From Bacteroidales bacterium (GTDB taxonomy: Bacteria; Bacteroidota; Bacteroidia; Bacteroidales; UBA7960): a DNA stretch of 36,397 bases. This document shows, piece by piece, positions 5,209 through 36,228 of this stretch (positions are counted from its first letter, which is position 1; each line of letters opens with the position of its first letter). A program made the position numbers and the translations under genes. The stretch is from contig PUOJ01000174.1 of NCBI GenBank assembly GCA_003552075.1, forward strand, positions 1 through 36,397, given 5' to 3'. The notes beneath the pieces are model-generated. The model did not search any database. It was not told where the DNA came from and was given only the letters and a program-made list of their open reading frames with translations.

Positions 5209-5514
5209 ATAAGATATATGCGGAAACGCGTCTTGCCAGATAAATCGATACCCTGTGGTCCCGGCAACTTTTTGCCCATTATTTTGCAGATGAAGTGGGC
5301 ACTTGCGAACTCGGCGAAGAAAATGCCTCATTACAGGATTTAAGACACACAGGAAGATGATCATTGCCCGTGGGTATTTAGCTCTGCGAACCTCAGTAAA
5401 ACCATCAGCAAACCTCAGCGAGAAAATTAAACTACAAAACATTGACTGCTTGAATTTTGCAAAATTATGAACACATGATCACGTGCCTTTTAACCATTGA
5501 TGCAACAAAATCAC
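5209..5514. other. Intergenic stretch between divergent xerD and the Yip1-like gene
   Basis: This stretch contains no convincing gene. It holds a short segment resembling the tail of the 120-bp dispersed repeat (5288-5330), and two AACCTCAG words about 23 bases apart at roughly 5389-5420 in an otherwise low-complexity context. The rest is AT-rich near the Yip1-like promoter. An open frame of 78 codons across it has no recognisable features and is partly repeat. Confidence 0.5.
5288..5330 (-). repeat. Probable decayed copy of the 120-bp dispersed element
   Basis: On the minus strand this reads CTTCGCCGAGTTCGCAAGTGC followed by CACTTCATCTG. It aligns with CTTCGCCGAGCTCGCAAAGTGCTCGGTTCATCTG of the copies at 19575-19686 and 35107-35347. 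Only the tail half is recognisable and both inverted arms are damaged, so this is an inference from a core of about 35-40 bases. Confidence 0.4.
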
Positions 5515-19526: not shown

Positions 19527-19574
19527 CCCGCATGTTGTGCGCAAGCTTTCTGTCCTATGGCAGATTGCCTTCAT

Positions 19575-19686
19575 CATTTTTATATTTCGGTCAGATGAAC
19601 CGAGCACTTTGCGAGCTCGGCGAAGCCAAATCGCCATTAGATATTCATTACCCTGTTTGTCAATTCTTTGGCATGGAGGTTTCATC
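19575..19686 (-). repeat. Dispersed 120-bp element, single inverted copy between tonB and folC
   Basis: The minus strand of this stretch aligns along nearly its whole length with the tandem units at 35107-35347. Shared blocks are GATGAAAC, CCATGCCA, a middle ATTGACA, then ATGGCGA-TTTGGCTTCGCC-GAGCTCGCAAAGTGCTCGG-TTCATCTGACCG-AAATATAAAAAT. The tail contains the inverted pair CCGAGC/GCTCGG, and GCGA/TCGC with GGC/GCC can form a hairpin. It lies wholly between tonB (stop 19526) and folC (ATG 19702). A frame reads through it but no protein family is seen. Confidence 0.8.
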
Positions 19687-33444: not shown

Positions 33445-33463
33445 GGTGCGGGTGATTTTTTAA

Positions 33464-33545
33464 ATGACAAAATGACAAAAGGACGAAAAGACAAAATGTC
33501 TAAAGGTCTATAGGTCGAAAAGTCCAAAAGTCCGGGTATGCGATG
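33464..33545 (+). repeat. GACAAAA/GTCAAAA short repeats between fbp and cinA
   Basis: TGACAAAA, GGACGAAAA and GACAAAA words change midway into GTCTAAAG, GTCGAAAA and GTCCAAAA words, then end in AGTCCGGGTATGCG. The combination is shared with 4152-4184 and the GGACAAAA words with 34841-34886. It fills most of the gap between cinA and fbp and lies just upstream of the fbp start. Confidence 0.65.
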
Positions 33546-34832: not shown

Positions 34833-34840
34833 GATAAAGA

Positions 34841-34886
34841 AGGACAAAAGGACAAAAAGACAAAAGGACAAAAAGACAAAAGGACC
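34841..34886 (+). repeat. AGGACAAA tandem repeat in the cinA leader
   Basis: Six units with a period of 7-9 bases, alternating AGGACAAA(A) and AGACAAA. It ends eight bases before the cinA ATG and lies between it and the probable -7 element at 34898-34905, so it would be transcribed as the mRNA leader (U-rich UUUUGUCC words on the cinA strand). Confidence 0.75.
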
Positions 34887-34905: not shown

Positions 34906-34995
34906 ATCAATAATATGCAAGATGCCTTGGCAATAAGCCAATTGTTTGTGCTTTTGCTTAACTTTGTCTTTTATGGCTGTTTGCCGTTGGCTTTT

Positions 34996-35062
34996 GGCTA
35001 TTAGCTATTGGCTATTGGCTATTAGCTTTCTTGCCAACAGCCAACAGCTAAAAGCTAATAGC
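34996..35062 (+). repeat. (RGCTATT)4 heptad repeat and 12-bp inverted repeat
   Basis: Four head-to-tail heptads, GGCTATT-AGCTATT-GGCTATT-GGCTATT, occupy 34996-35023. The last one merges into GCTATTAGCTTT (35018-35029), which is perfectly complementary to AAAGCTAATAGC (35051-35062) with a 21-base loop of GCCAACA words. A TAACTTTG -7-like element stands upstream at 34959-34966 on the plus strand but about 400 bases from the next gene. The stretch 34887-34995 holds no gene. Confidence 0.75.
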
Positions 35063-35106
35063 AGTCTTGTGGAAATCACAAGCGCCAGATAACCAATAAG
35101 TTGAAA

Positions 35107-35361
35107 ATTGTAAGCATATGAAACGAGCCATGCCAATATATTGACACACACGAGAATAATTATGTCATGGCGAGTTTGGCTTTGCCGAGCTCGCAAGTGC
35201 TCGGTTCATCTGACCGAAATATAAAAATTATAAACAGATGAAACGAGCCATGCCAATCTATTGACACACAAGAGAATGATTATGTCATGGCGAGTTTGGC
35301 TTCGCCGAGCTCGCAAAATGCTCGGTTCATGTGCCCGAAATATAAAAATTATAAACAGATG
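35107..35361 (+). repeat. Tandem pair of the 120-bp dispersed element upstream of the nucleoside phosphorylase gene
   Basis: Unit 1 spans 35107-35226 (120 bp) and unit 2 spans 35227-35347 (121 bp, one inserted A). A 14-base third start, ATTATAAACAGATG, spans 35348-35361 and contains the start codon of the following gene. The two full units differ at only a handful of positions. Within each unit ATGAAACGAGC at the head and GCTCGGTTCAT at the tail are near-perfect inverted repeats, giving an inner element of about 93-95 bp. GGCGAG...CTCGC with inner GGC/GCC can fold into a hairpin. Each unit has a tiny frame, MKRAMPIY, unlikely to be meaningful. A related inverted copy lies at 19575-19686. Confidence 0.88.
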
Positions 35362-36228
35362 AAAATTAAAGAATCTGAGCTTGTATTGAACCCAGACGGG
35401 AGTGTTTACCACCTGAAGTTGAAGCCGGAGCATATAGCGCCTAATGTAATTGTAGTAGGTGATCAGGGCAGGGTAGAGGTTATATCCCAGTATTTTGAGA
35501 AAATTGAACATAAGATCCAAAACAGGGAATTTCTTACGCATACGGGATATTACCGGGGTGAGCGGATCACGGTGCTTTCGACCGGTATCGGTACGGATAA
35601 CATTGACATTGTGATCAATGAACTGGATGCCGCCGTGAACATAGATTTGGAGAAACGTGTCGAAAAAGAGAAGCACACCGCGCTGAACATCGTGCGGCTG
35701 GGTACCTCAGGCGCTTTACAGGAGGACATCCCGGTAGACACCTTTGTGGCGTCGGCATTCGGATTGGGTTTTGACGGGCTGCTCCATTTTTACCAGTACG
35801 ATCAGGGCTTGACCGAGACGGCCATGGAGGATGCATTCATAAAACATACGGCCTGGAACGAGCGCCTCGCGAGACCTTACATTGTGGCGGGCTCTGATGA
35901 CCTGCTCAAGCAGGTCGCGGCAGACCTGAGAAAGGGCGTAACGGCTACCGCACATGGATTTTTCGGGCCACAGGGCAGGGAACTGCGCATTCCACTTGCT
36001 TTCCCGGAGCTAAACGACAAAATGGCCACCTTTAACCATCATGCGCAACGCATCACAAATTTTGAGATGGAAACTTCTGCACTCTATGCCCTGGGAAGGA
36101 TACTTGGTCACAACACCCTGACGGTGTGCAATATCATAGCCAACCGGGCAAGGAAGGAATACAGTGAAAATTACCAGGAGTCCGTAAAGAAGATGATCGG
36201 CTACGTCCTGGATAAACTTGTCAACTAA
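35359..36228 (+). CDS. Nucleoside phosphorylase, uridine phosphorylase-like
   Basis: A 289-residue member of the PNP/UDP family I phosphorylases, which split nucleosides with phosphate for salvage in the cytoplasm. VIVVGDQGRVE corresponds to the N-terminal phosphate-binding GD.R region, LSTGIGTDNIDIVINEL and RLGTSGAL follow, and NFEMETSALYAL is the ribose-binding signature with Met-Glu. The Bacteroidota group usually called uridine phosphorylase is the closest fit, but base specificity cannot be read here. The ATG at 35359 starts the conserved protein and is exactly at the junction with the tandem repeat; a longer frame from 35287 only translates repeat. The next gene starts 12 bases after its stop, suggesting an operon. 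Confidence 0.88.
   Translation: MKIKESELVLNPDGSVYHLKLKPEHIAPNVIVVGDQGRVEVISQYFEKIEHKIQNREFLTHTGYYRGERITVLSTGIGTDNIDIVINELDAAVNIDLEKRVEKEKHTALNIVRLGTSGALQEDIPVDTFVASAFGLGFDGLLHFYQYDQGLTETAMEDAFIKHTAWNERLARPYIVAGSDDLLKQVAADLRKGVTATAHGFFGPQGRELRIPLAFPELNDKMATFNHHAQRITNFEMETSALYALGRILGHNTLTVCNIIANRARKEYSENYQESVKKMIGYVLDKLVN

Follow-up and report, generated by a model that had tools for sequence, protein, structure and literature searches.

The tandem units and the phosphorylase leader

The window analyzed here is the whole of a 36,397-nt stretch, contig PUOJ01000174.1 (GCA_003552075.1) of a Bacteroidales bacterium (UBA7960), and all coordinates are window positions. Two head-to-tail units of 120 to 121 bp lie directly upstream of a nucleoside phosphorylase gene (Table 1). 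They belong to a dispersed family of short elements that insert precisely at start codons, as read against empty sites, and that share their ends with IS110-type insertion sequences, in which segments of a 3' non-coding RNA covary with the insertion junctions. A repeat search of the window aligned the two copies at 92% over 93 nt with a spacing of 120 and at 94% over 49 nt with a spacing of 121. The spacing-121 family extends into the phosphorylase ATG, confirming the tandem that a preliminary description, made from the sequence alone, had placed in front of this gene. The start of a third unit mentioned there is the ATGAA at positions 35359 to 35363, that is, the phosphorylase start codon; the limits of the biological units, however, are offset from those first proposed. 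Tandem Repeats Finder did not list the 120-bp array for the window.

Table 1. Coordinates of the tandem units, the adjoining gene and related features in the window
Feature	Position	Strand	Basis or remark
Unit 1, miniature element, long hairpin type (ATGAAACGAGCC...ATAAACAG)	35118..35237	+	
Unit 2, miniature element, long hairpin type as unit 1	35238..35358	+	
Left-end core of unit 1 (TTGACACACACGAGAATAATTAT)	35141..35163	+	1 mismatch to core pattern; full IS110-type elements have the same core at the left end
Left-end core of unit 2 (TTGACACACAAGAGAATGATTAT)	35261..35283	+	Exact match to core pattern
Internal hairpin of unit 1 (GCGAGTTTGGC/GCCGAGCTCGC)	35170..35194	+	Folding
Internal hairpin of unit 2	35290..35314	+	Folding
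AT-rich right end of unit 2 (CCGAAATATAAAAATTATAAACAG region), then ATGAA start codon	35334..35358	+	
Nucleoside phosphorylase gene (PNP_UDP_1), 289 aa	35359..36228	+	Start codon is target junction
Likely native promoter -7-like box of the phosphorylase gene (TAACTTTG)	34959..34966	+	Read directly; orthologue likeness
Probable right part of an older, 5'-truncated long-type element	34973..35117	+	Left limit uncertain; by eye
Another miniature element, older-looking (L014)	19570..19686	-	
Degenerate older copy: core-like 5342-5364, tail AAAATTATGAACACATGA	about 5290..5476	+	Limits by eye

Members of the family share a common order, in which a left end with an ATGA-A(A/C)C stem arm is followed by the core, a variable middle, the motif TTC(C)ATnTG and an AT-rich tail ending CAnATGAA. 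The middle may be missing or may consist of a GCGAG..CTCGC hairpin, other hairpins, or a minisatellite. Inverted arms of the ATGAAAC..GTTTCAT type are present by eye, the right arm being internal and the AT-rich tail lying beyond it. When folded as RNA on the gene strand, both units were more stable than shuffled sequences (z of -2.8 for unit 1 and -3.9 for unit 2). Four matches to the core pattern, allowing up to 3 mismatches, lie in the window, where 100 shuffles gave 0.01 on average. Since the units hold no transposase gene within their 120 to 121 bp, they represent a non-autonomous derivative and not an insertion sequence (IS). Like miniature inverted-repeat transposable elements (MITEs), the family is short, non-coding and multicopy and has ends in common with an autonomous element type. 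No Rfam family matched the window at gathering score, which agrees with the earlier remark that no named family is known for the unit; its ends, however, are those of an IS110-family insertion sequence.

Within the elements, the internal n (CATnTG) and the right-end n (CAnATG) form a Watson-Crick pair in 80 of the 86 elements that have both the internal motif and a CAn end (160 elements in all, the others being unscored), a value that none of 10000 shuffles reached. The pairing is weaker among loci of the window's own genome (12/16), and unit 2 itself is a mismatch (CATGTG with CAGATG). RNAalifold, applied to 23 diverse short elements that remained of 64 after near-duplicates were dropped, returned this helix as the only one; the varying pair was C:G in 8, G:C in 7, A:U in 4 and U:G in 1, and was unpaired in 3. 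Two other readings of the unit were rejected. A protein-coding function does not fit because the frame shifts between copies by eye, although some of them keep an open frame with similar words (IDTQGNDY...). An invertible promoter does not fit because, in the copies examined, the tail never changes sides relative to the core.

TAnnTTTG is the -7 box of Bacteroidetes promoters. The likely native box of the phosphorylase gene ends at position 34966, 392 nt from the ATG at 35359, and an apparent truncated older element and the two complete units lie in between. Orthologues without the insert have the box as TAACTTTG (L162) or TACCTTTG (L163), some 20 to 30 nt from the start. The word TTGCTTAACTTTG and a divergent cinA gene are common to the window and L162, and L163 has TTGCTTACCTTTG. 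No TAnnTTTG was found on either strand of positions 34967 to 35358, although no wider promoter scan was run, and a promoter within the unit was rejected as a candidate on this ground. Because the box is retained upstream and shared with orthologues, the native promoter was likely not lost but displaced by insertion, and the units lengthen the leader. The element alters the leader, as had been suggested; a need for it to supply a promoter is not supported. The longer, structured leader may change translation of the phosphorylase.

The probable truncated element directly upstream of unit 1 holds, by eye, a (TTGGCTATTAGC)-like minisatellite hairpin and then a tail ending AAAATTGTAAGCAT before ATGAA, and this insert is absent from both phosphorylase orthologues examined. 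A long subtype with a (TTGGCTATTAGC)-type minisatellite hairpin in the middle is represented by this element and by L112, L116, L121 and L124, and the minisatellite comes after the left-end core at loci such as L112, L121 and L124. Similar minisatellites recur at many loci of the window's genome. Short tandem repeats lie on both sides of cinA (34840 to 34885 and 33462 to 33498; AAGGACAA, AAATGACA), and GACATTTTGACA-like runs are present in leaders of relatives.

A dispersed family at start codons

The unit has 50 matches in the window's own genome assembly (2.39 Mb, 198 contigs, 86.5% complete), and both same-genus orthologues of the phosphorylase gene that were examined lack the insert. The possibility considered in the preliminary description, that only these copies exist and relatives have a unique conserved leader here, is therefore not borne out, and the unit is a member of a dispersed family. 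In a search of relatives, the family was found in 26 of 59 genomes, the own genome included. The exact core pattern TTGACACACANGNNNATGATTAT occurs in at least 111 stretches of genome contigs. Bacteroidota account for 77 of the 80 core stretches listed (49 labelled Bacteroidales, 11 Labilibaculum), and the other three (L230, L232 and L241) look like chance matches, having no ATGAAAC left end or tail. The family was not found in phage records or viral contigs. Head-to-tail arrays of two or more nearly identical 95- to 97-bp miniatures were observed at L211, L210, L196 and L269, the first three in Labilibaculum filiforme. Near-identical arrays such as L211 may have expanded by recombination and are candidates for copy-number variation between strains.

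To the right of the elements, the terminal ATG opens an open reading frame (ORF) of at least 100 aa in 78 of the 118 cases in which the right side is readable and no other element follows. This compares with 641 of 3021 for all ATGAA (contigs L182 to L292), a baseline that takes in every ATGAA, including those inside genes and at element ends. The corresponding count for the own genome is 12 of 19.

Same-genus orthologues supplied the empty sites, and core and tail were sought in their 230 nt upstream. For rplS, the core is missing and the start is ATGAA in 11 of 12 relatives, and the twelfth (L154) has a decayed core. All six orthologues of a symporter gene are empty and start ATGAA; valS orthologues are likewise empty (4/4, two of them starting ATGAA), as are those of a lacI-like gene (2/2), the phosphorylase gene (2/2) and a macrodomain gene (4/4, start not aligned). 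A dehydrogenase-like gene has two empty orthologues and two with other family members. Since empty orthologues join the leader directly to ATGAA (rplS, the symporter and others), insertion is precise at the start codon. At filled sites, ATGA(A) is kept on the old leader, and the gene regains ATGAA from the right end of the element. ATGA(A) thus flanks the element on both sides, compared with one copy in empty sites, a pattern in which duplication and an element-borne core are indistinguishable. The left flanks of the miniatures have no motif beyond A+T richness.

IS110-type elements with the same ends and their 3' RNA

The core and tail of the miniatures also bound full IS110-type elements (L264, L302, L308 and L309), which thus end in a tail like that of unit 2, and the core precedes the transposase in L191 and L312 (the L247 copy). 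As an example, L264 has the core shortly upstream of its transposase and ends with AAATTATAAACAG before ATGAA, 1518 bp after its left end. The 11 elements whose ends could be placed measure 1435 to 1536 bp and sit at ATGAA or GTGAA sites. Pfam domains PF01548 and PF02371 scored above cut-off in the DEDD transposases of L264, L304 and L305, and the nearest solved chains are the IS621 and ISCro4 transposases, IS621 being the nearest. In a protein search of the order (E of 1e-40), 21 of 393 genomes had the transposase; the window's genome gave no match. An IS110 domain search of 35 genomes gave matches in four; the core was absent from all of these, and a single loose match resembling the tail was seen at L293.

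The transposase frame of L264, L302 and L309 shifts by -1 at one common A-rich stretch, which codes for lysine and lies ahead of the final quarter of the gene (about position 3348 in L264); the shift may reflect decay or a programmed frameshift. Further interruptions occur in L308, L309 and L312, and L191 ends with its contig. Single-frame transposases are found in L304, L305 and L306, relatives with other left ends. To the right of full elements, open frames begin that resemble, by eye, a sugar nucleotidyltransferase (L308), a rubredoxin (L339), a low-molecular-weight phosphatase (L344), MazG (L338) and an amylase (L359). No long frame stands behind the right-end ATG of L264, L303 and L309, and L302 is directly followed by a miniature. 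Subterminal inverted repeats of 7 to 17 bp were not found; the longest exact inverted word between left and right ends is 0 to 6 nt in 10 of the 11 elements and an A/T-only 9-mer in L311. More distant IS110-type elements (L313, L318, L320 and L328; transposase 36 to 39% identical) keep a related left-end word, CACACAnnCnnATAAAAATC, which suggests that the core is old in this clade.

All 11 placed elements have a non-coding RNA between transposase and right end that contains two ATGAA segments. The right-end bases before TGAA recur in segment 2 (nnATGAAAATTT), two bases being equal in 17/17 elements and three in 14/17 (0 of 200000 shuffles). For instance, the right end and segment 2 are both CGTGAA in L304 and both GTATGAA in L344. 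Segment 1 (nATGAAAC) was scored only for the 11 elements whose left end is readable; in 10 of them its n equals the chromosomal base to the left of the inserted element (4 of 100000 shuffles). The count of 17 includes six new loci from a covariance model of the RNA. Among the 31 loci of that model, 15 lack the two-segment pattern and were not counted, and 10 of the 16 that have it repeat elements already used. Outside the 17, L338 agrees fully by eye, and L346 and L347 match at the two bases before T (L346 has the right end ATTAA, and L347 has ATAAT as segment 2). The RNA also carries a CACACAGG-like word that resembles the left-end core and, by eye, varies with it between subgroups, L302 differing. 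RNAalifold returned 13 pairs with little covariation for the 3' RNA, so its fold is not established.

The covariance model matched 28 of the 393 genomes of the order, ten of which had supplied the model. In the relatives search it matched one of 37, G020, which belongs to the window's genus. At the G020 locus, the RNA is followed by a tail (AAATTATAAACACATGAA) and an amylase-like start, and the transposase is cut by the contig end (partial PF02371). In G084, the model matches the very ends of contigs C8, C17, C59, C60 and C77 (positions 1 to about 82), which would be expected of a multicopy insertion sequence that interrupts the assembly. Since several RNA matches lie at contig ends, multicopy elements may be missing from draft assemblies.

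Origin of the units, rival explanations and known relatives

As explained by these observations taken together, the 120-bp units are, with a probability of about 0.8, non-autonomous miniatures of an RNA-guided, start-codon-targeting IS110 lineage of Bacteroidota. According to the available portions of the cited papers, IS1111/IS110 transposases choose targets with such RNAs and can move cargo flanked by element ends whether the RNA is supplied in cis or in trans (PMC11187229, PMC11208160). The units of the window are therefore read as miniatures moved in trans, the 3' RNA presumably acting as a guide and mobilizing them. The target would be (A)TGAA, which in most cases is the start codon of a gene that opens with ATGAA (Met-Lys or Met-Asn). 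Transposase and guide RNA (a bridge or seek RNA, encoded 3' of the transposase in full elements) would act in trans. The RNA would hold one copy of the left junction (n/ATGAAAC..) and one of the right junction (nn/ATGAAAATTT..) and so pick nATGAA sites. After insertion, ATGAA would stand on both sides: the old start codon would stay with the old leader, and the right end of the element would give the gene a new AT-rich leader and restore its ATG. Because insertion recreates the target at the right end, new copies could stack, which is the most likely origin of the tandem in the window.

Several findings weigh against this explanation. Neither an IS110 transposase domain nor the guide RNA was found in the window's own assembly; given 86.5% completeness and 198 contigs, loss and an assembly gap are indistinguishable. 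No core-bearing full element has a transposase readable in one frame. The covariation has exceptions in L309 (segment 1) and in L304, L319 and L339 (third base of segment 2), and the shuffle figures overstate independence because the elements are related. The full RNA is missing from the miniatures, and no constraint is seen on the base that precedes their target, so no particular guide can be assigned as their mover. Not all copies are at start codons: behind 40 of the 118 readable right ends no ORF reaches 100 aa, and at pyrD the copy stands within the leader, shortly before the ATG. Two of the valS orthologues start ATGGA. The phosphorylase orthologues start ATGAG and not ATGAA, so the start of the window's gene before insertion cannot be deduced.

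Near-identical head-to-tail units could also arise if the gene's own leader were copied locally through replication slippage or unequal recombination, and some Labilibaculum arrays (L211), being almost identical, may well expand in this way. For the window this is very unlikely and largely refuted, since neither phosphorylase orthologue has such a leader and matches are found across the genome. Moreover, unit 1 is 97.5% identical to a copy at L002 and unit 2 is 95.9% identical to one at L003, compared with 93.4% between the two units; the recent duplication proposed in the preliminary description is not supported by these values. Other tandems combine clearly different subtypes (L002, L009). 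Thus, stacking by repeated insertion fits the window better than duplication. Independent repeats of the repetitive extragenic palindrome (REP)/BIME or BOX kind, moved by another enzyme such as a Y1 REP-associated transposase and merely serving IS110 as landing sites, are also improbable, if somewhat less so. IS1111 has been reported, in the available text of PMC5896051, to land in a REP inside a MITE, and 5 of the 11 full elements lie directly behind sequence like the right end of another element. However, L308 and L309 have their own core upstream and tail downstream of the transposase, with no tail-like sequence in front. A single Y1 transposase gene (L061) was detected in the genome, and since its surroundings contain no core, tail or hairpin sequences, Y1 was rejected as mover. 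This gene (G000:C135) lies near different repeats (GTGTGCGGATCCGTGTAGTGC arrays), apparently an unrelated repeat system.

A less remote, though still unlikely, explanation is that the unit is kept as a structured regulatory 5' untranslated region (UTR) and was spread by selection as a translational switch: TTCATnTG would pair either with the ATGAA arm on the left or with the start-codon region CAnATGAA. The covariation of the internal and right-end motifs and the single helix returned for the short elements would fit such a switch. However, the partner word is missing near the right end of all 11 full elements, which nevertheless sit at ATGAA or GTGAA sites, insertion upstream of unrelated genes speaks against a dedicated function, and the pairing is weaker in the own genome.

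Returning to miniatures of an RNA-guided IS110 lineage, we tentatively consider an extension that is possible but has the odds against it. The whole lineage would have fixed its guide on nATGAAA, and the miniatures (about 100 bp) would be self-stacking, RNA-addressed leader cassettes, in which the internal TTCCATnTG, covarying with CAnATGAA, is itself a guide or recognition segment. If so, the miniatures would carry part of their own address and put their leader before many genes per genome. Apart from this extension, the main explanation itself would imply a natural RNA-guided recombinase addressed to a functional feature, the start codon, and not to one sequence or repeat, and an insertion that spares the gene by supplying a new start, i.e., a natural RNA-addressed rewiring of gene beginnings. 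The elements would also provide a natural set of guides, donors and targets for asking how short an IS110 target can be. They would explain repeat-rich leaders in Bacteroidota that annotation may take for native 5' UTRs.

The closest known systems, as far as the available portions of the papers describe them, are IS110/IS1111 elements with bridge RNA or seekRNA (IS621, ISEc11 and ISPa11; PMC11208160, PMC11187229). Like the partner elements described here, they have a DEDD transposase with PF01548 and PF02371, a non-coding RNA with short segments matching target and element ends, and no long terminal inverted repeats, and IS1111 elements likewise have a long non-coding region or RNA 3' of the transposase. 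Their targets are longer (GTGAAAATACTG for ISEc11, 11 bp for IS621), whereas the site shared here is just nATGAA, mostly at start codons, and the units of the window differ from them in having neither a transposase nor such an RNA. The present elements have the RNA downstream, as in IS1111, but none of the subterminal inverted repeats (7 to 17 bp) described for that group. IS900 of Mycobacterium avium subsp. paratuberculosis, also of the IS110 family, reportedly targets translation initiation signals, a result ascribed to Doran et al. in 1997. IS900 is the nearest precedent for aiming at translation starts, and we know of no miniature derivatives of it. Its target motif, CATGNNNNNNTCTCCTT in the available text of PMC8141618, differs from the ATGAA site.

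Miniature IS110 derivatives were not found in the available portions of the literature searched, including PMC10969869, PMC11187229, PMC11578231, PMC3189936 and PMC3718332, in which the MITE parents, where named, are not IS110 elements. REP repeats associated with Y1 transposases (PMC3733652, PMC2817692), as described in the accessible parts of these papers, are likewise short, hairpin-rich, multicopy and mostly intergenic; unlike them, the present family does not flank the single Y1 gene of the genome and has defined ATGAA junctions. The BrickBuilt MITEs of Porphyromonas gingivalis have IS5-like terminal inverted repeats, and start-codon targeting is not described for them in the available text of PMC4596501. 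According to the same text, they resemble the present family in being Bacteroidales miniatures with an internal minisatellite and in one copy that has GAAA on both sides.
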